From Rossellomorea marisflavi (lineage in GTDB: Bacteria; Bacillota; Bacilli; Bacillales; Bacillaceae_B): a stretch of DNA of 64,000 nt. A program made the position numbers and the translations under genes. Below the pieces are notes generated by a model. That model was not told the DNA's origin and searched no databases. It saw only the letters and a list, made by a program, of their open reading frames with translations. This document shows positions 30,165 to 41,266 of this stretch, piece by piece; positions within the stretch are counted from its first letter, which is position 1, and each line of letters starts with the position of its first letter. Where the stretch lies: NCBI GenBank assembly GCA_003667865.1, contig CP033051.1, positions 321,501-385,500 on the forward strand, written 5' to 3'.

Positions 30165-33100
30165 TTACTCTGTAATAACAGACAGTCCTTGTTCCTCTAA
30201 TAGAGAAATGAAATCATCTAACGTACCCACTTCATATGTGTGTAGAACTCCATTTTCTTTGTAATTTTTTGCTAAATAAATGAAGTCTGTTCCATCAACC
30301 TGTTCGCTACCATTGAAATCTGAGAATTCTGCTGTTTCCATGTATTCATCTACAAACTTTGTTAAATCAAGTAATTGAATAACATCGTCTTCTGCTGAAA
30401 TGGCAGTTGCTTGTGTATCACCAGTTAGTAGATTGAAGTGGATTTCTAGTGATTCACCTTCAACTACATTGAAGATATATGGTCTCTCTGTTTCTTCAAT
30501 GTTTTTATTAATTGCCATCGCTGATAGATAACGGTCCCGATCAGCAAAGAACATGTAGTGGCCTGGCTCAAGATTCATTGTATATTCTCCCGATGCATCT
30601 GTTACAAACTCTCCTGCTTTTTTAACCTTGTTTGTTTCAATATCTACCTTCATGGCCACAATTCGTGCACCAGAATTATCATTTATTGTTGTATTGCTTG
30701 CTGCATCATAATCTCCATCACGTCCTTCAAGAGAAACTTTACCTGTAATCCCTGGTTCCACAAGAATCGTCGCAGTTACAGAGCTTTCTGGTACATCAGT
30801 AGACACGATTTCTGATGAAACAACCTTTGCGTCCTTGAAAGAAACAGATGCTTCTTCGTTGTTTTCTCCAATTACAGTGAGTGGGATTGTAATTATTGCA
30901 TCACCGTTTACCACCGTTTTACTTGCAAAGCTCACAGTTAGCTTCCCTTCATCAAGTTTGCTAGTATCAGAGATTAATTGAAAATCTGTACCTTCAAATG
31001 CACCGAAGTCAATAATATCAGCTAACTCTCCCTCCTGAAGCTTTAGAGTATCTGGAGTAAACTCTAGGATAAACTCCATTCCTTGAATTTGTTCCAAATC
31101 TTCGATCGTGATTGCTGCATGGACAGCTTGACCATCCTTCTTAATGACACCTTCCGTTACACCTGATCCTATAAATTCTGTTTTAGAAGCTAATTTTGCT
31201 TTTGACAGCTCAAAGGAATCTACCACTTCACCATCAATATTTGTTGTTTCAATAATTAATTTATTACCATCTACTTTAATCGCTGAGAACACTTGCTTAT
31301 CTTCACCGTAAAGGAAATCGATATAGCTATATTTTTCTTCAGGATAGAATTTAGGACCTGAAGAGCCACCGATCATGTATAAGGTTCCCTCTCCTTTTTC
31401 AACTGGAACACCATCATTCATGCTATAGGTTCTTGCATAGGCATGGTCATGACCAACAAGTGCTAAATCAACACCTAATTCCTCAATTACAGGTGCAAAG
31501 ATTTTTAACGTTGCATCAGCACCGCGTAATGGATTACTGTGATATGGTGCTCTGTGGAACATGACCACTTTCCACTTTTTGTCTGTATTACTCATATCTT
31601 GGCGCAACCACTCTGCTTGAGCTTGCATAGAATCCGCACCAAACTCAGAGTTAAGCATCGCGAAATGAACATCTCCATAATCAAATGAATATACCCATTC
31701 TTCTTCACCAGCTAATCCATTTTCTGGATTCGCGAAAAATGCTTTAAAGAAATTCTCCCCTTCACCATATACATCATGGTTTCCAAGTACTGCCTGCATT
31801 GGTAAATTGGCAGTTTGTCCTTCAATAGCATCAAAGAAATATTCCCACTGCTCCATTTTAGCTGCATCATCTACAATATCACCGCCATGTAGCATAAATT
31901 TTGCTTCTGGATATTTTGTCCTCGCAGCGTTAAATACTTGTCCATAAATTTGATTTCCTTCCCAATTCGCTGCCTGAGAATCTGCTGTAAAAAGGAATGT
32001 AAATGGTTCATTTGTTTCAGGCTCCGTTGTGAATGTATACGGATCAGACCAACCATGCTCTGTACCACTTCCGACACGATAGGTGTACGTCGTGTTTGGC
32101 GATAAATTTCTCACTGTTCCTTCATGAATTCTCATTTCCCCACTAACATCGACCACAAGCTGACTTTCCCCATGAACTTGTTGTACATTTTCTGCATCAA
32201 AGCTAGTAAATTCAGATGACTTTACAAATTGTATAACTGAATTCGTGATTGTTGGAAGAGTTCTCCATGTTACACTTTGCGTCGTTTTAGGACTTTCCTT
32301 CCATGAAAGAATAACGTGCTCCGGCTTTTCAATCCCTAACTGTGGTACGATGGTGAAGGCTTTAACGGTACTTACTTGTCCCTCTTTAACTGCTTGGATC
32401 TCAAAATCCAACTCAGCTAATGATAGAAGGTTTGTTTTTAACTCTCCATTCGTATCTGTAACTCCTAGAGGTGAAGGCATAGTATTTACCGCAACCTCAG
32501 ATGCTAAAACATACCCAATGGATCCATTCTTTAAATAAACCTCTATGAAAGAATCTCCTTCCCCTTTTACATATACAAGGGTACTCTTTTCTAATGATGT
32601 AAGGACTTCTGATTGATTGTCTGCATTTTTGTAGATAGGAGCTGTATCTGTTAGGACCTCAGCATACTTCGTAATACTAGAAGGATTTAAGATATTTACT
32701 TCAGCTCCTTCTATAGGTGCTCCTTCTTCATTTTTTACAGTGACAATCGAATGTGAATCAATAGACAGACCTTTAATATCTGTTGTAAATTTATAAGCTA
32801 TTGGGGAGATATAAGGTTTGTGGAACGTTTTCTTCTCATCACCTCTTACATAAGTAAACAATCCATTTTTTAATTCAATCTTGATCTCATGATTCGTGAT
32901 TGAACTAGCTTTGAAAGGTATCTTGGCAATCACATCAGTTGCTGAAAGACTTGTATTGCCATCCAACTTTGTTGTGTTGATGATGATTTCGCCGGTTGTA
33001 TTATCAACCGAAAGAACTTCAATATTTTCAGCTGTTATGTTCGGACCCGCATTAATTTGCACACCAGCAGTGGTATTGTCTTGATCTACAACTTTCACAA

Positions 33101-36032
33101 CAGCTGGATCAAAGAGAATCTTGACTTGTGTCTCTTTCAGCTCTTTTATACCTTTAACCTTAAGATCAACATTAAACTCTTCACCAGCATATACCTTCTC
33201 TGGACCCTCCATTACATATTCAGTACCAGCTGAAATAAAGAAAGACCAAGTTAATTCAGTAGGATTTTCAAATCCATCTTTTACAAAAACAGAGGCTTCG
33301 TGGTATCCCGCTGTTAAGAAGCTCTCAGGCATAAAGCTTACTCTACCTGTTACAGGATCATAAATATGCTCCACAACCTCACCATCAACTTTCATAACCG
33401 TCTTGGTTGGGTCAATTCCTGTACCACCAACGTTATCTTTTGCGATTATACTAATCGTTGGCTGAGCTGCAGGTGTAGTTGCACCATCAGCAGGAAATGC
33501 TTCTGTTAATGACGGATTAATAAGATCATCATTTGTTTCTCCATATACAGCTCTAAAATTATCCAGAAATACTGTTGCGGCATTCTTATTTCCATCACTT
33601 GTTTCCATTACCCGAATGGCTAAATCAAGCTTAAGAGGAGTCTGCTTCCCTTTAGGCACATTTGCTTCAATGTACTTCCAGCCCTCCCAATTCACCCCTG
33701 TTTTTTCTCCAGTAAAATCAACAGGAAATGCACTTCCAGATCCATCTCTCAACTGTGCACGTAGCCAATGCCCATCATTTGCTCCGTAAAACCACAACCC
33801 GATTTTCTCTGGATATCCTTCTATTTCTATATCATTGACTGGATAAGCATATGCTCCTGACGTACCTTTTTGCCCAGTGAAATCATAATCTAATCGTAAA
33901 GAGCCTTGCCCAAATCGAATAGGATCCCCTGGTTTATTTGCAGAAATGGCAATTGAATTATAACGTGCACCTGACTTTGTCCACCCTTCAATCCCATCCT
34001 CAAAGTCTTCCAAAATAATTGGGGGTTTACCAATATCAACCTTTATTTCTTGTACAAGTTCACCATAACGAACATTGATTACCCCTGAAGCCGCTCCTTC
34101 TACTGCTTTAAAATTCCCTTTTGAATCAATTGTTCCAATTTCTCCTTCTACCTCATAGGTGAATGCTGTTTCATCTGTGATGACAGGTAGATTGTTATGA
34201 TATGCATTAACCAATACCTTTCTTTCATCACCAGGTCCAAGCGCAAGCTCCGTTTGACTCACTTCAATGCGATCCAATGTATCTACAACTTCAACTTTTG
34301 CTGTCGAACTAATGGAATGAGTAGTTGCTGTTATAACGCCCATACCCGCGGTCGCCCCAGCTTGAAATACATGACTAGAGAATTCTCCTAAGCCCGCATT
34401 TGCTGTAAAAATAACATCCTCTGTTATCGTTGCAGGATTGTAAAATTCATCCTGTGCCTTTACTTCAAAGGAAGTATGAGAGCCTGCTAGAATTCTAGTT
34501 TCACTTGGTAAAACTGTTATATGCTTAATTGCTCCTTCTGATGGAGCTGTACTTACTACTAATAATGAATTGGCTACATTTCTCTGACTTCCATCTGAAG
34601 GAGAATTCACGACACTTAAATGACGATCACCTGGTTGACGTGCCACGAAAGTAGTAGAACCACCACCATCAAGATTGATTGCATCAACCGCACCTAAATC
34701 CTTCATGATTTTTCCTAAGTCATTAAGAGTAACACCTTCACTAAATCCTGGCTGTCTTCCATCAATAACAGTAAAAAATACTGAACCATCTGCTTTTACA
34801 CCAAGTGCAGTTCGCGGATGCTTATAGGGATCTGTAGATGCAACCGCATCACCATCCTTCACAAGCAAATGATAACCTCCAACCGCTTCATCGACTTTGT
34901 CAAATGGCGCATTGGTTGTAGTCTTAATTATTATTTGATCACCAGGTTGTAAAGAATCTAGAATTTCTTTAGATGTTCCTTCACCAGACAGAACAAATTG
35001 TCCTTCTGTTAAGCTTGTATTTCCTTGATTAGATAAAACTTCTTTAACTGTAGTTGTAACCTCACCCGAAGGCTTCAATACATCACTTACATTCTCTAAG
35101 ATTACTTCTGTTCCATTCGTATTTGTATATGTAGAAGTATCATAATCTTGATTAAAAATAACGAGACTATTGCTGCCACGTTCTCTGTTAATTCCATTAA
35201 TTTTATGTGTGATTGGTTCTACTAGAGGTTGTGTGCCAATGACTGTTTCTTGTGTAGACTCTTCTGCTTTCGTCGGATTCTCATCTATGGTAGGATTTTC
35301 TGTTGGTACTTCATTTTCTGGCTTCTCTTCTAGCGTAGATTCTTCTTCTGTTGGTGGTGTCTCACTTGTTGGGGATTCTTCAGCATTTGGTTCTTCTATC
35401 TCTTGTTCTTCTGTTGGTGTGTCTTGATCTTGTGACTCTTCTGCCCCTGCCTCTTCTGTATTTGATTGATCTTCAAGTATCGGAGTTTCTGATACTGATG
35501 CTTCAGTTTGTACAGGTGTCACTTGCATTTCTATTGAAGTTGTTATTTTTTCTAGCATAACCTCTCCATTATCTAATATTGCCACTACTGGTCTTGATCC
35601 AGTACTTCTCATAATGCGTCCGTCATGTATAACACCTTCAATAGGAACACCATTAGACGTGTTATAGAAATCACCATTTATGCCACCTATAACTTGATAG
35701 CCTGGTTTACTTATTAAAGCAGCCTGGTTTGTGACTGTTTGAAAACCAGCCAATTTTCCATTTGAAGACCCTACCTCAAGTTCTACATACGGATTTTTTG
35801 TATCAATGTCCATATTGTAAATTTTCAAGGGACCATAATCTGTTGTAACCTCCATCTTTGTTTGTGTTACTCCAGGTGAAATATTTAAGGCGGTTTCTTT
35901 CGTAATTTCACCTAACGAAAACGAATCCCTCTCTTCAGCAGTAATTAGCGAACTAAAACTGGATAATACTAATGTAAAAACCAATAATAGTGCTAGCAAC
36001 TGTCTGTAAAGTACATTCCTATGCTTTACCAT
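30165..36032 (-). CDS. Giant secreted phosphodiester glycosidase / metallophosphoesterase
   Basis: A 1955-residue multidomain protein. In order: signal peptide (about 1-32); phosphodiester glycosidase (NAGPA) domain with GGINGDFYN near 118 and DAINLDGGGSTTFV near 455, split by an acidic Glu/Pro/Thr linker (about 178-265); Ig-like regions (about 500-665); a carbohydrate-binding-like jelly roll (about 670-830); a cohesin-like domain (about 938-1068); an SH3-like domain (about 1125-1183); a purple-acid-phosphatase N-domain (about 1238-1340); a calcineurin-like phosphoesterase (FTADSQ, GGDIVDD, LGNHDVY, FHRAPYH, GHDHAYART; about 1344-1600); a second cohesin-like domain (about 1628-1760); a carboxypeptidase-regulatory-like domain; and a dockerin-like end (about 1881-1921; DFNGSEQVDGTDFIYLAKNY). 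It probably acts on wall polymers or other phosphate esters. It lacks SLH repeats, so it may be held by the SLH-cohesin protein. Confidence 0.85.
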   Translation of the reverse strand: MVKHRNVLYRQLLALLLVFTLVLSSFSSLITAEERDSFSLGEITKETALNISPGVTQTKMEVTTDYGPLKIYNMDIDTKNPYVELEVGSSNGKLAGFQTVTNQAALISKPGYQVIGGINGDFYNTSNGVPIEGVIHDGRIMRSTGSRPVVAILDNGEVMLEKITTSIEMQVTPVQTEASVSETPILEDQSNTEEAGAEESQDQDTPTEEQEIEEPNAEESPTSETPPTEEESTLEEKPENEVPTENPTIDENPTKAEESTQETVIGTQPLVEPITHKINGINRERGSNSLVIFNQDYDTSTYTNTNGTEVILENVSDVLKPSGEVTTTVKEVLSNQGNTSLTEGQFVLSGEGTSKEILDSLQPGDQIIIKTTTNAPFDKVDEAVGGYHLLVKDGDAVASTDPYKHPRTALGVKADGSVFFTVIDGRQPGFSEGVTLNDLGKIMKDLGAVDAINLDGGGSTTFVARQPGDRHLSVVNSPSDGSQRNVANSLLVVSTAPSEGAIKHITVLPSETRILAGSHTSFEVKAQDEFYNPATITEDVIFTANAGLGEFSSHVFQAGATAGMGVITATTHSISSTAKVEVVDTLDRIEVSQTELALGPGDERKVLVNAYHNNLPVITDETAFTYEVEGEIGTIDSKGNFKAVEGAASGVINVRYGELVQEIKVDIGKPPIILEDFEDGIEGWTKSGARYNSIAISANKPGDPIRFGQGSLRLDYDFTGQKGTSGAYAYPVNDIEIEGYPEKIGLWFYGANDGHWLRAQLRDGSGSAFPVDFTGEKTGVNWEGWKYIEANVPKGKQTPLKLDLAIRVMETSDGNKNAATVFLDNFRAVYGETNDDLINPSLTEAFPADGATTPAAQPTISIIAKDNVGGTGIDPTKTVMKVDGEVVEHIYDPVTGRVSFMPESFLTAGYHEASVFVKDGFENPTELTWSFFISAGTEYVMEGPEKVYAGEEFNVDLKVKGIKELKETQVKILFDPAVVKVVDQDNTTAGVQINAGPNITAENIEVLSVDNTTGEIIINTTKLDGNTSLSATDVIAKIPFKASSITNHEIKIELKNGLFTYVRGDEKKTFHKPYISPIAYKFTTDIKGLSIDSHSIVTVKNEEGAPIEGAEVNILNPSSITKYAEVLTDTAPIYKNADNQSEVLTSLEKSTLVYVKGEGDSFIEVYLKNGSIGYVLASEVAVNTMPSPLGVTDTNGELKTNLLSLAELDFEIQAVKEGQVSTVKAFTIVPQLGIEKPEHVILSWKESPKTTQSVTWRTLPTITNSVIQFVKSSEFTSFDAENVQQVHGESQLVVDVSGEMRIHEGTVRNLSPNTTYTYRVGSGTEHGWSDPYTFTTEPETNEPFTFLFTADSQAANWEGNQIYGQVFNAARTKYPEAKFMLHGGDIVDDAAKMEQWEYFFDAIEGQTANLPMQAVLGNHDVYGEGENFFKAFFANPENGLAGEEEWVYSFDYGDVHFAMLNSEFGADSMQAQAEWLRQDMSNTDKKWKVVMFHRAPYHSNPLRGADATLKIFAPVIEELGVDLALVGHDHAYARTYSMNDGVPVEKGEGTLYMIGGSSGPKFYPEEKYSYIDFLYGEDKQVFSAIKVDGNKLIIETTNIDGEVVDSFELSKAKLASKTEFIGSGVTEGVIKKDGQAVHAAITIEDLEQIQGMEFILEFTPDTLKLQEGELADIIDFGAFEGTDFQLISDTSKLDEGKLTVSFASKTVVNGDAIITIPLTVIGENNEEASVSFKDAKVVSSEIVSTDVPESSVTATILVEPGITGKVSLEGRDGDYDAASNTTINDNSGARIVAMKVDIETNKVKKAGEFVTDASGEYTMNLEPGHYMFFADRDRYLSAMAINKNIEETERPYIFNVVEGESLEIHFNLLTGDTQATAISAEDDVIQLLDLTKFVDEYMETAEFSDFNGSEQVDGTDFIYLAKNYKENGVLHTYEVGTLDDFISLLEEQGLSVITE

Positions 36033-36230: not shown

Positions 36231-37199
36231 TCATAAATCAGTATAATCGAGGATATAGTACTTCCCCTTTTTACTGCCAATAGAGTTTAGCTCTAAGGAT
36301 TGTAAAATTCTTGTTGCAAGTGATGGTGACTCTATTTGGAGGAAGTGTCTTAGTTTTTGGTTGGTAATTATGTTTCCAAAAAGAAAGAAATAGTCTCTTA
36401 TTGCTTGTGTATGAGCATCTTTTGAATACTTATCACATCTTGCGCAATACCATTTTCCATTTGCTCTACTAATCCGCACCGTTTCACAGTATGGACAGAA
36501 TACTCCTTGCATAAGATCATCTTCTGATATTTTATATTTTGCTAATACTGAGGTTTCCAATGGGGTGTGATGTTTTAAAATCTTACGAGTAATTTTCTTG
36601 AGTTCGTGTTCTGGTGCTATCTCACTGATCGTCGTTTTCTCTAGTTCAGTAATTTTTAATGGTAATAACTCAGAATGGAAAACATAGCGATGAAGGCTTT
36701 TATTTTCTGGTGACGTTTTAATGATTGTGGAGGGCTTACTGATTACAACAAAGGAATGGAGTGGAATTGAAGTGAGTTTATTAGCTTGCAGCCATTTCTG
36801 AAAATGACCCTCTTGTCGCTGCACTTGTAGTAGTGGATCCTGAAAAGCCGTCTCTTCGCCATCCAGCATTCTTAATAGCTGATGAAATTTTTGGTCAAAG
36901 TATAAAGTTCCTGCTATATTTTTAACCTCTAGCAAAACAGCAAACTTTGATGAAAAAATAAGGGTATCAATTTGGAAGAAATGAGGGCCGGTTTTCAGTC
37001 TAATATCATGTAGAATTTTATAATGCTCGGGAAGAAAGGATAAGTGATAGTCGATTGCCTTCTCTCCATTGAATCCAGAAAGATTCATTAAGAGTTGCTC
37101 TTTAATAATCGTGTATTTGGGGTGATTTTGAGGAAGCCTGCGGAGAAGTGCTTCTAGTTTCAGGATAATAATGGGGATTTTTCTTTGTTTTAGGATCAT
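36231..37199 (-). CDS. NERD-domain protein with zinc-ribbon-like motif
   Basis: A 322-residue cytoplasmic protein with a NERD (nuclease-related) domain at about 42-150. Key parts are GFNGEKAIDYHLSFL, FFQIDTLIFSSKFAVLLEVKN (the D and E-x-K of a restriction-endonuclease-like fold) and QVQRQEGHFQKWL. After a helical region comes a Cys4 zinc-ribbon-like motif, CPYC followed by CARC about 17 residues later, and a possible winged-helix end. NERD proteins are common in Bacillaceae; nuclease activity is inferred for the family and not proven. GGAGAG precedes the ATG. The gene is alone. Confidence 0.85.
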   Translation of the reverse strand: MILKQRKIPIIILKLEALLRRLPQNHPKYTIIKEQLLMNLSGFNGEKAIDYHLSFLPEHYKILHDIRLKTGPHFFQIDTLIFSSKFAVLLEVKNIAGTLYFDQKFHQLLRMLDGEETAFQDPLLQVQRQEGHFQKWLQANKLTSIPLHSFVVISKPSTIIKTSPENKSLHRYVFHSELLPLKITELEKTTISEIAPEHELKKITRKILKHHTPLETSVLAKYKISEDDLMQGVFCPYCETVRISRANGKWYCARCDKYSKDAHTQAIRDYFFLFGNIITNQKLRHFLQIESPSLATRILQSLELNSIGSKKGKYYILDYTDL

Positions 37200-37420: not shown

Positions 37421-37450
37421 AAAAAAGACCTACCAAAAGGCAAGTCTTTG
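37421..37450 (-). terminator. Terminator of ssrA
   Basis: On the minus strand AAAGACTTGCC-TTTT-GGTAGGTCTTTTTT, a strong stem with a T run, about 30 bp after the tmRNA CCA end. Confidence 0.85.
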
Positions 37451-37481
37451 AATTAGCGTATAGAACCACCAAATTATGTAT

Positions 37482-38120
37482 TGGTGGAGACGGTGGGACG
37501 TGCGATCCATGCTTTCGTCATGGCACTGACTATATCTTGAACCTTTTGTTGTAGTAAGGTCCTTTGGCGTATTATGCGAAATATATTTTTTACCGAAACG
37601 GTAGGATTTCGCATCCTAGTACTACCAATTTGGCAGCCTATGAGTCGATACACAGCTGTTGGATTGCTCCACATACTGCTCGGTATTGCCATATCACACT
37701 ATTGTGACTTAGGTTTCACCGATAAAGCCAAATTTTCACTTGCGTGTTACCACACAAGGCGACTATTTACTAATCGAACCCACGTCCAGAAATAACGGCA
37801 CTTAGGCGTCTACGAGCGTAGTCGATATATTGCGAGTTCGCTACTTCTTTTGCCTATCGACAGGCGTCCGAGTAGCTAGCCTGATTGATCTCTTCCTTTG
37901 TCCTCAGACGGTGGACTCCGGCGTATCCCACTTAAGTTGAGTCCCTTACCCTACCACATGGGCGATGGAGGGAGGAACCGCTAAGCTAGCTTACGCTGCT
38001 AAAGCGAAGTTGTTGTTTGATTTGCCAGTTATTATTGGCGATTGCCGTTTTTTACGAGGACGAACACCCTCGGCTCGCGACCCAAGCTCGAACTATCCCT
38101 GTCGAATCCGTAACGTCCCC
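37482..38120 (-). ncRNA. ssrA: tmRNA (ssrA), interrupted by an intron in the T-loop
   Basis: The minus strand carries the 5' tmRNA end GGGGACGTTACGGATTCGAC and the 3' acceptor end TCCCACCGTCTCCACCA with encoded CCA. The two parts form the tRNA-like domain only if a 274-nt insert inside the T-loop (GGTTCGAT^TCCC) is removed; the exons are then 348 and 17 nt, 365 nt in total, a normal tmRNA length. Together with SmpB, encoded just upstream, it rescues stalled ribosomes and tags the nascent chain for ClpXP. The tag reading frame (38026 down to 37991) encodes GKSNNNFALAA, shorter than the B. subtilis tag but with the usual ALAA end. Confidence 0.93.
37499..37772 (-). other. Group I intron in the ssrA T-loop
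   Basis: All four conserved group I elements can be read on the minus strand: P (TCGGTGAAACCTAAG, 37708-37722), Q (GGCAATACCGAGC, 37678-37690), R (ATCGACTCATAGG, 37637-37649) and S (AAGATATAGTC, 37528-37538). TCGGT of P pairs with ACCGA of Q (P4), and GACT of R with AGTC of S (P7). The 5' exon ends in CGAT and pairs with intron GTCG (37760-37763) to give P1 with the required U.G at the splice site, and the intron ends in G. A stem CCATG/CATGG after S fits P9. It has no homing-endonuclease gene. Confidence 0.88.
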
Positions 38121-38314: not shown

Positions 38315-38788
38315 TTAGAATCTACCTTTTTGACGATCTGCAAGCTCACGCTGAATGGAACGATTCGCTTCTTTACGCTTTAACGATTCACGCTTATCGT
38401 ATTTCTTTTTACCTTTACCTAATCCAATAAGCAATTTTGCATAACCATCTTTGATATACAGCTTTAATGGAACGAGTGAGTAACCAGCTTCCTTTGTTTC
38501 ACCAATTAGCTTATTGATTTGCTTACGATGTAACAGAAGCTTGCGCGTTCTTAAAGGGTCATGATTATAACGATTTCCTTGCTCATACGGACTAACGTGC
38601 ATATTGAAAAGATACACCTCACCGTTACGAATCCGAGCAAAAGAATCCTTTAAGTTCACACGACCTGCACGAATGGATTTGATTTCTGTACCTTGAAGGA
38701 CCATTCCCGCTTCGTAGGTTTCTTCAATCGTAAAATCATGACGTGCCTTTTTGTTTTGGGCAAGAAGCTTGCCATCTCCCTTTGGCAT
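38315..38788 (-). CDS. smpB: SsrA-binding protein SmpB
   Basis: A 157-residue protein opening [19 protein letters not shown], with [29 protein letters not shown] in the OB-fold and a basic tail ([20 protein letters not shown]) that enters the ribosomal channel. It binds the tRNA-like domain of tmRNA and is required for trans-translation. Length is normal. It lies between rnr and ssrA on the same strand, the standard Bacillus order. Confidence 0.97.
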
Positions 38789-38906: not shown

Positions 38907-41243
38907 TTATCTCTTTTTACTGCGCTTAGGCTTACGTTTGTTAATTGGAGCATTTTCGAATGACTTCTTCTTTTTCTTTTTCGGTGGACGTGTGCTCCAT
39001 TCGTCTGATCCACCACGTGACTTTCCTTCTGTTGTTGGTTTTTTACGCCCACCTTGGTCGGCTCTAAAAGAACGTGGTGCATCAAGGCGTTCACGTTGAT
39101 TATTTTTCATACCAACAATTTCAAAGTCGATTGAACGCTCGTCTTTATTTACTTTCACTACTCGAACTGTAATTTCGTCTCCGATCCGGAAGACATTCCC
39201 GGTACGTTCCCCAATCATGGCTAACTGGCGCTCTTCATATCGGTAATAGTCATCCGTCATATAGCTAACATGAACGAGACCTTCTATCGTATTTGGTAGT
39301 TCGACAAACATCCCAAAGTTGGTTACAGAACTAATGATTCCATCGTACTCTACACCAATTTTATCTTCCATAAATTCAGCTTTCTTGAGTTCATCTGTTT
39401 CACGCTCTGCATCGACTGCACGACGCTCACGGTTTGATGTATGGTCAGCAATCTCATCAAGTCTTGCATTCCATTTTTCACGTGTTGTCTCATCTAGCTG
39501 CCCTTCAATTAAATATGTTCGAATTAATCGATGCACAATTAAGTCAGGGTAACGACGGATCGGTGATGTAAAGTGTGTGTAGAACTCAGCTGATAGTCCA
39601 AAGTGCCCTAAGCTCTCAGGGAAATACTTTGCTTGCTGCATAGAACGAAGCATAACCGTTGAAACGACCATTTCCTCAGGTTTGCCTGCCACTGCTTCAA
39701 TGATTTCCTGAAGTGCTCGTGGGTGTATCGAATTAGCTTTCCCTTTTACAACTAACCCGAAGTTTGTAATGAATTCAAAGAAACGTTGTAGCTTATCCTC
39801 TTTTGGATCCTCATGGATACGGTAAATAAACGGAACTTCCATCCAGTGGAAATGCTCAGCTACCGTCTCGTTTGCTGCTAGCATAAATTCCTCAATTAGG
39901 CGCTCTGAAACCGATCTTTCACGTAAGACAACATCTGTTGGTTTGCCCTCTTCATCTACTAGTACTTTTGCTTCTTTAAAATCAAAATCAATCGCTCCAC
40001 GCTCCATACGCTTAGTGCGTAAGATAGAAGCAAGCTCTTCCATATCCTCAAACATTGGAACTAATGGCTCATAGCGTTTACGTACCTCTTCATCCTTATC
40101 TACAAGGATTTTATTAACATCAGAATACGTCATACGCTCTGTTGTTTTGATGACACTTTGGAAAATTTCATGATGAACAACTTGTCCTTTGTCATCAATC
40201 TCCATTTCACACCCAAGTGTAAGACGGTCAACTTTTGGATTTAAAGAACAGATACCGTTTGATAGACGATGTGGAATCATTGGTATGACTCGGTCTACTA
40301 AGTAAACACTTGTCCCTCGTTCAAATGCTTCTCGGTCAATCGGAGATTCTTCTTTTACATAGTAACTAACGTCTGCAATGTAGACTCCTAGCTTGTAGTT
40401 CCCATTTTCAAGCTTTTTAACGGTGACGGCATCATCTAAGTCCTTTGCATCGGCACCATCAATCGTAACAATGGTTTCATTACGTAAGTCTCTTCTATTT
40501 GTAATCTCGGATTCGTCAATCTCATCTGGAACACTATTTGCCTGCTCCATGACATCATCAGGGAATTCGACTGTAATGCCATACTTGTGAATAACAGAGA
40601 GGATATCTACACCTGGATCATTTTTATGACCAAGGATATCAATAACTTCTCCTTCAGCACTTTTACGGCCTTCAGGGTATGACGTCAGTTTTACCACGAC
40701 TTTATGCCCTTCAACCGCACCCATACTCACTTCTTTCGGGATAAAAATATCACTAGTAAACTTCTTATCATCCGGAATAACAAAGCCGAAGTGTTTGCTT
40801 TCTGTATACGTTCCGACAATCTGCGAAGCACCACGTTCTACAATACGTACGACTGTTCCTTCTCGACGCGTACCAGATGATGTTGTCGATACCCGAACAA
40901 GTACTATATCCCCGTTCATCGCATTACTCGTTTCATTTGGTGGAATAAAAATATCATCCATCCCAGGATCATCTGTAATGACAAATGCGAATCCTTTTGC
41001 GTGAGCAGAGAATTTCCCTCTTAATAGGTTCATTTTTTCCGGAAGACCGTAGCGATTACTTCGTGTCCTTACGACAAGTCCTTGCTCTTCCATTACAACT
41101 AGAGCTTTTACAAATTCTTTAAAGTCAGTTGACCCTTCAATCCCAAAGGCTTCTTCAAGCTCTTGTACGGTTAGCGGCTTATAAGCCTCTTCCTTCATAT
41201 AAGATAAAAGTCGGTCAATGTGACCTTTTATGTTTTGATCCAT
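38907..41243 (-). CDS. rnr: Ribonuclease R
   Basis: A 778-residue 3'-5' exoribonuclease: N-terminal winged helix, two cold-shock domains, the RNB catalytic domain ([20 protein letters not shown] with its cluster of metal-binding aspartates, then [11 protein letters not shown] and [16 protein letters not shown]), an S1 domain ([20 protein letters not shown]) and a long Lys/Arg-rich tail ([30 protein letters not shown]). It degrades structured RNA and the mRNA released by trans-translation, which fits its place next to smpB-ssrA. I use the ATG behind AGGAGG; a TTG just before it is unlikely. Confidence 0.97.
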
Positions 41244-41266
41244 CAAAATCCCTCCTAGGAACGGTT

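Follow-up and report, generated by a model that had tools for sequence, protein, structure and literature searches.

Rossellomorea marisflavi almost certainly carries an autocatalytic group I intron of the T-loop position-7 type in the only recognisable tmRNA gene of its genome, and this intron appears to have been inherited mainly vertically within the genus, with repeated precise loss and some exchange. The gene lies on the minus strand of the window, by which we mean the whole stretch of 64,000 nucleotides analysed here (contig CP033051.1, positions 321,501 to 385,500). Its exons, the helices of the intron and the adjacent genes are collected in Table 1.

Table 1. Features of the interrupted tmRNA gene, its intron and its neighbours (positions within the window)
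Feature	Position	Strand	Basis or remark
tmRNA (ssrA), whole split gene	38120..37482	minus	group I intron inserted at 37772..37499
tmRNA 5' exon, 348 nt, from acceptor 5' strand GGGGACG to T-loop nucleotide 6	37773..38120	minus	RF00023; ARAGORN on the spliced gene
tmRNA tag reading frame, GKSNNNFALAA and stop	37991..38026	minus	ARAGORN on the spliced gene
Group I intron, 274 nt, first base U, last base G	37499..37772	minus	RF00028; 86-pair structure; empty sites in relatives
tmRNA 3' exon, 17 nt: T-loop nucleotide 7, 3' strands of T-stem and acceptor stem, encoded CCA	37482..37498	minus	sequence
P1, exon CGAU and intron UA (37776-37771) with UAGUCG (37765-37760)	37760..37776	minus	U.G at the splice site
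P3, UUUGGC (37732-37727) with GCCAAA (37568-37563)	37563..37732	minus	two-sided change in 4 of 6 pairs
P4	37722-37718/37684-37680	minus	inside P3, along with P5-P6 and P7.1-P7.2
P7, GACU (37646-37643) with AGUC (37531-37528)	37528..37646	minus	pseudoknot with P3
P9.0 (GUG/CAC) and P9 with GAAA loop	37500..37526	minus	sets the terminal G at 37499
Hairpin CCACCA/UGGUGG, 5' arm containing the mature CCA end	37466..37487	minus	by eye, window and relatives
smpB, tmRNA partner protein, just upstream of ssrA	38315..38788	minus	PF01668, E = 2.3e-63
RNase R-like gene	38907-41246	minus	order: RNase R-like gene, smpB, ssrA

The match of the tmRNA model RF00023 to the window (38112-37771, minus strand, 164.2 bits, E = 5.5e-65) breaks off at 37771, so that the 3' strands of the T-arm and of the acceptor stem are missing from it. 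The first bases of the gene, GGGGACG, begin at 38120, and its missing 3' end, the 17-nt UCCCACCGUCUCCACCA, is found 274 nt further along, at 37498-37482; the severed 3' exon described in an earlier note on this DNA is thus present in the sequence. ARAGORN detects no tmRNA in the unspliced window and calls a tmRNA of 365 nt, with the tag GKSNNNFALAA, once the 274 nt are removed. Despite its cut T-arm, the gene has the tRNA-like domain, the tag frame and the secondary structure of a tmRNA.

The hairpin that spans the CCA end of the tmRNA, with the arms CCACCAAAUA...UAUUUGGUGG at 37466-37487, is terminator-like; by eye, it is followed in relatives by a run of T that is broken in the window, and a second terminator-like hairpin lies downstream of it, at about 37421-37449 of the window. 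On its downstream side ssrA adjoins a gene for a NERD-domain protein (36231-37199; PF08378, E = 1.2e-18). A protein of 1955 aa encoded at 30165-36032 looks, by eye, secreted and multidomain, with a metallophosphoesterase-like stretch.

The 5' exon terminates in GGGUUCGAU, and the insertion falls between T-loop nucleotides 6 and 7, after UUCGAU and before U; its precise removal restores the T-arm, as in the T-loop position-7 class. The earlier note had placed the insert exactly to the base, and all of the elements that it named are there: P1 (CGAU/GUCG with its U.G pair), P4 (UCGGU/ACCGA), P7 (GACU/AGUC) and the terminal G. In the covariance-model check that it proposed, RF00028 (Intron_gpI), searched on a stretch of 481 bases, gave a match to the whole model (1-253) at 37507-37782 on the minus strand with E = 7.5e-10, but its 43.3 bits fall under the gathering score of 50 bits, so that a permissive search was required and the default Rfam thresholds left the window intron unmatched. 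The group I core, P3 to P9 with the P3/P7 pseudoknot, is nevertheless recovered both by this match and by a structure of 86 pairs, and these, with the covariation seen in 77 relatives, uphold the assignment of the insert to group I. Two open reading frames over the insert (72 and 73 aa) gave no Pfam match up to E = 0.01; the window intron therefore lacks the endonuclease gene that characterises a homing intron, as the earlier note had stated, and the idea of a hidden endonuclease gene was dropped.

Helices were placed by hand on the window copy (T-stem, P1-P5, P5a, P6, P6a, P7, P7.1, P7.2, P7.2a, P8, P9.0 and P9), with P1 reaching 6 bp when extended to CGAUUA/UAGUCG. Intron forms were collected at 198 places, of which 176 are complete and match the strict 3' exon pattern and 22 do not match it, 6 of these being cut by the end of the locus and 16 being complete without an encoded CCA (L077, L107, L109, L124, L125, L128, L129, L139, L142, L151, L164, L171, L173, L184, L192 and L205). 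As the 176 complete loci include the same gene fetched repeatedly, they amount to 115 unique introns, of which 77 were aligned after leaving out those longer than 300 nt or more than 93% alike. A terminal G closes the intron in 176 of 176 complete loci (115 unique). A U.G pair marks the 5' splice site in 77 of 77 aligned introns; this constancy, like that of the exon ends, is mostly an effect of selection, because the script accepted only loci with GGGUUCGAU and the 3' exon, and most searches asked for the guide G. The 22 introns of the genus, found by DNA similarity and free of those requirements, also show the exon ends and the guide G.

Across the 77 aligned introns, standard pairs occupy 96.3% of the 6611 cells. 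Slid-partner controls were paired in 33.7-40.0% of cells and had two-sided change in 9-18 pairs; since a structure drawn on one sequence tends by that alone to beat its slid versions, the two-sided changes constitute the stronger evidence. Such changes were found in 42 of the 86 modelled pairs and in 361 cells, as against averages of 21.6 pairs and 104.9 cells when the letters of the 3' strands were shuffled. They are distributed over P1 (1/6), P2 (6/8), P3, P4 (1/5), P5a (4/4), P6 (2/4), P6a (3/4), P7.1 (2/9), P7.2 (7/9), P8 (4/7) and P9 (3/5). P7.2a shows two-sided change in all 5 of its pairs, yet is paired in just 45.6% of cells, and as drawn on the window copy this helix fails in most relatives in the alignment. 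No two-sided change occurs in the T-stem, P5, P7 or P9.0: P7 and the T-stem are invariant in 77 of 77 introns, 5 of the 6 P1 pairs never vary, and P9.0 is paired in 100% of cells with one-sided changes only (P9, 97.7%). The invariance of P7 is consistent with the model and lends it no covariation support, and that of the T-stem is equally neutral. Folding of the locus as a single strand likewise gave an unusually stable structure (z = -4.36, 100 shuffles).

Empty sites are available within the genus itself. Among 36 genomes, 22 carry the intron and 14 an uninterrupted tmRNA gene (RF00023, 194-203 bits), with exactly one tmRNA above the cut-off in each, that of the window included. ARAGORN recognised a tmRNA in all 14 intron-less genes and, of the 22 intron-bearing ones, in all 22 once they were spliced but in none before; run without its intron option, the program thus overlooks the tmRNA in all 22 intron-bearing genes tested. 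In 11 of the 14 intron-less genomes the T-arm is the exact spliced form, GUGGGUUCGAUUCCCAC, with the same 17-nt 3' end, which, together with the ARAGORN call on the spliced window gene, bears out the claim that precise removal would restore a normal T-loop. The other three (G011-G013) carry GAGGGUUCGACUCCCUC, with an altered T-stem. These are sister species (loci L029, L030 and L031) with C instead of U at position -1 and a T-stem of GAGGG/CCCUC; because of this C, the U.G pair of the intron would be impossible in them. Covariation in relatives and natural intron-less alleles, taken together, exclude a chance insert.

Over the final 343 nt of the 5' exon, the six closest of ten pairs of genomes with and without the intron agree at 99.1-100% of positions (343 of 343 nt between the intron-bearing G009 and the intron-less G002), and the four more distant pairs at 93.9-98.5%. 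The 3' exon and the 400 nt downstream of it are 72.5-93.0% identical in such pairs; this figure is uninformative on the event, because two intron-bearing sisters diverge similarly (77.5%). Four of the 14 intron-less species (G002, G018, G021 and G034) have an intron-bearing nearest neighbour both by rpoB and by the stretch upstream of the site. The genus thus offers natural pairs of close species with and without the intron for asking what it costs.

When mapped on an rpoB tree of the 36 genomes, intron presence requires at least 10 changes, 9 of them forced by well-supported branches. Presence is unclustered on this tree: shuffled presence labels required a mean of 11.3 changes, and 139 of 500 shuffles were as low as the observed value. 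Such patchiness might reflect repeated gain by horizontal routes, for example from phage-borne copies, instead of vertical descent with repeated loss; the intron tree itself conflicts with rpoB, the rpoB topology being rejected for the introns by an AU test (p = 0.0007), and intron-form tmRNA genes do occur on viral contigs. We consider repeated gain the less probable reading, though a live one. Against it, intron distances are strongly correlated with rpoB third-position distances (Mantel r = 0.93, p = 0.0005, 22 genomes), the intron and rpoB trees share 5 of 19 splits where label shuffles shared 0.18 on average and 4 at most, and the window intron gave no endonuclease match and, at the DNA level, none to the phage and plasmid collections searched. 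Because the AU test rejects the rpoB topology, inheritance cannot have been purely vertical either. We read these results as an intron that was anciently present, often lost precisely and sometimes exchanged; losses may have proceeded through recombination with an intron-less allele or with a copy of the spliced RNA.

The viral copies that would feed repeated gain deserve closer description. A pattern scan of IMG/VR matched 19 stretches. Ten were discounted as chance matches: Rfam recognised nothing in nine of them, and the tenth, L289, resembles L288 at the site. The remaining nine correspond to eight loci (L274, L276, L279, which looks like L290, L281, L284, L287, L291 and L292) in which a tmRNA-like T-arm is interrupted at the same subsite. 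In the seven that are not truncated at a contig end, as L284 is, the T-stem is restored on excising 236, 669, 672, 240, 246, 777 or 195 nt, and behind it comes an acceptor strand for which a complementary 7-mer (G.U allowed) exists upstream; as such a 7-mer can occur by chance, this is weak evidence if taken alone. Both RF00023 and RF00028 matched L281. L291 matched RF00023 and reached 41.5 bits with RF00028 (E = 3.2e-7), under the gathering score; L276 matched RF00028 only, L279, L290, L284, L287 and L292 RF00023 only, and L274 neither. Endonuclease-like reading frames lie antisense in three of the seven complete inserts: that of L276 matches Pfam LAGLIDADG_3 (E = 4.8e-9), that of L279 matches LAGLIDADG_3 (E = 3.1e-5) and, as its best PHROG, a family named HNH endonuclease (E = 4.4e-23), and that of L291 matches a PHROG endonuclease (E = 1.6e-17) and no Pfam family. 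The L291 contig, at least, is that of a phage, since PHROGs, though not Pfam, identifies a terminase large subunit on it (E = 6.3e-37), while the viral status of the others rests mainly on the assignment by IMG/VR. In the available portions of PMC11915505, 79 phage tmRNAs are counted, and the passages there on phages and viruses are silent on intron forms among them. A phage reservoir of the tmRNA intron is therefore possible, with support that is uneven from one viral locus to the next.

In group I splicing, a guanosine attacks after the 5' exon, and the freed exon end then attacks after the terminal G of the intron. The intron of the window very probably cuts itself out in this manner, and proteins may assist. 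The transcribed intron would fold through P1-P9 and bind a guanosine in P7; cleavage would follow the U of the P1 U.G pair, that is, UUCGAU, and the freed U would attack past the terminal G, joining UUCGAU to UCCCAC in the predicted junction UUCGAUUCCC. Ligation would restore the T-loop and the acceptor stem, and only afterwards could the tmRNA mature and be aminoacylated. As just one tmRNA per genome passes the cut-off, trans-translation in this host should depend on splicing. The earlier note had raised this dependence on a ribozyme; the case for it is strengthened by the single tmRNA in 36 of 36 genomes and by the smpB gene upstream, but the claim stays conditional. If correct, ribosome rescue in the host would very probably rest on a catalytic RNA.

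It might be objected that the insert is a degenerate group I intron, dead for splicing, that has left the tmRNA a pseudogene in a cell using another rescue factor; no genome of the genus, indeed, has a longer branch in the rpoB tree than that of the window, and the RF00028 score of the window intron falls short of the gathering threshold. Every pair of the model is nonetheless formed in the window copy, the tag frame is complete, smpB has a full Pfam match and no second tmRNA above the cut-off is present in the genome, and we dropped this explanation as very improbable. A two-piece tmRNA, from which tRNA-processing enzymes remove the insert and leave the exons unjoined as in permuted tmRNAs, is less probable still and was likewise dropped, for although two-piece tmRNAs are described (PMC11915505, in the portions available), the present gene is unpermuted, with its 5' half ahead of its 3' half, the insert folds as a group I intron with the U.G pair and terminal G, and the same exons are joined in intron-less relatives.

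Returning to self-splicing, one element of many introns is missing here. P10, the pairing of the guide sequence with the 3' exon, is common in group I introns, though not defining. When P10 was sought in the 115 unique introns, contiguous pairs from the first base of the 3' exon numbered 1 in 114 introns and 2 in the remaining one, and a GGG in the P1 segment, which could meet UCCC, was absent from 114 of 115. The exons, for their part, contribute an invariant T-stem of 5 bp that is able to pair across the intron with P1 formed, the two being compatible because P1 occupies T-loop nucleotides 3-6. The T-stem and the acceptor stem may thus stand in for P10, a role that invariance of the T-stem cannot prove, since tRNA function predicts such invariance anyway. 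We tentatively suggest, as a scheme that is by no means the likeliest outcome, that splicing proceeds free of P10, the T-stem and acceptor pairing of the exons holding the 3' splice site and serving as a fold check, and that phage copies, some with an endonuclease, form the mobile reservoir of the site, while bacterial copies shed the endonuclease and turn over through precise loss. The tRNA-like fold of the product would then be part of the splicing machinery and double as a check on folding.

The intron form extends beyond the genus. Within the order, from which genomes were drawn evenly, a strict pattern (5' strand of the T-arm, non-C, guide GUYG) matched 90 of 397 genomes, belonging to 39 of 135 genera; read backwards, the same pattern gave 0 hits among the matches listed. 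Inspection of the loci behind 30 of these matches showed, in each case, an intron-form tmRNA gene that has a 3' exon. With a narrower pattern at least 117 stretches were retrieved, from genera including Oceanobacillus, Mesobacillus, Metabacillus, Fredinandcohnia and Sutcliffiella. The 115 unique introns measure 270-426 nt, six of them exceeding 300 nt. With the intron in 22 of 36 genomes of the genus and the strict pattern in 90 of 397 of the order, the earlier description of the class as rare is wrong here.

The statement in the earlier note that T-loop introns of tmRNA genes had been reported was, by contrast, sound. The available portions of PMC11915505 (Nawrocki, Petrov and Williams 2025) describe the class: 883 unique intron-form tmRNAs, all with the intron in the T-loop and most at position 7, the position-7 forms occurring in 21 phyla and predominantly in Bacillota, with an endonuclease gene in 36 of the 883; Williams 2002 is cited there for the first case of a tmRNA intron. 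We found no paper on tmRNA introns of Rossellomorea, judged by title and the start of the abstract; the word intron is absent from PMC4131195 and appears once in the available portion of PMC4383926.

A second group I intron in the same genome, outside the window (C1:4242733-4243042, equivalent to L001:1501-1810; RF00028, 83.6 bits), differs from that of the window in lying inside a protein gene that reads, from its open reading frames and by eye, as a ribonucleotide reductase. Closer is the tmRNA intron of Clostridium botulinum, which the available text of PMC2729099 states was shown to self-splice: it too is a group I intron in a tmRNA gene, with the substrate strand CGAU, and measures 287 nt, although the host is another, the exons of the construct are 338 nt (5') and 24 nt (3'), and the likeness is drawn from the description. 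With the class as described in the available portions of PMC11915505, the window intron shares the tmRNA gene, the T-loop 6/7 subsite, the U at -1, the terminal G, a similar size (274 nt, against a mean of 293 bp in the founding set), the lack of an endonuclease gene, as in most members, and a host in Bacillota, as is mostly the case there, and from those portions we see no essential difference. The class is already known and the window copy is an ordinary member of it, a well-supported additional example of an arrangement documented in hundreds of sequences.
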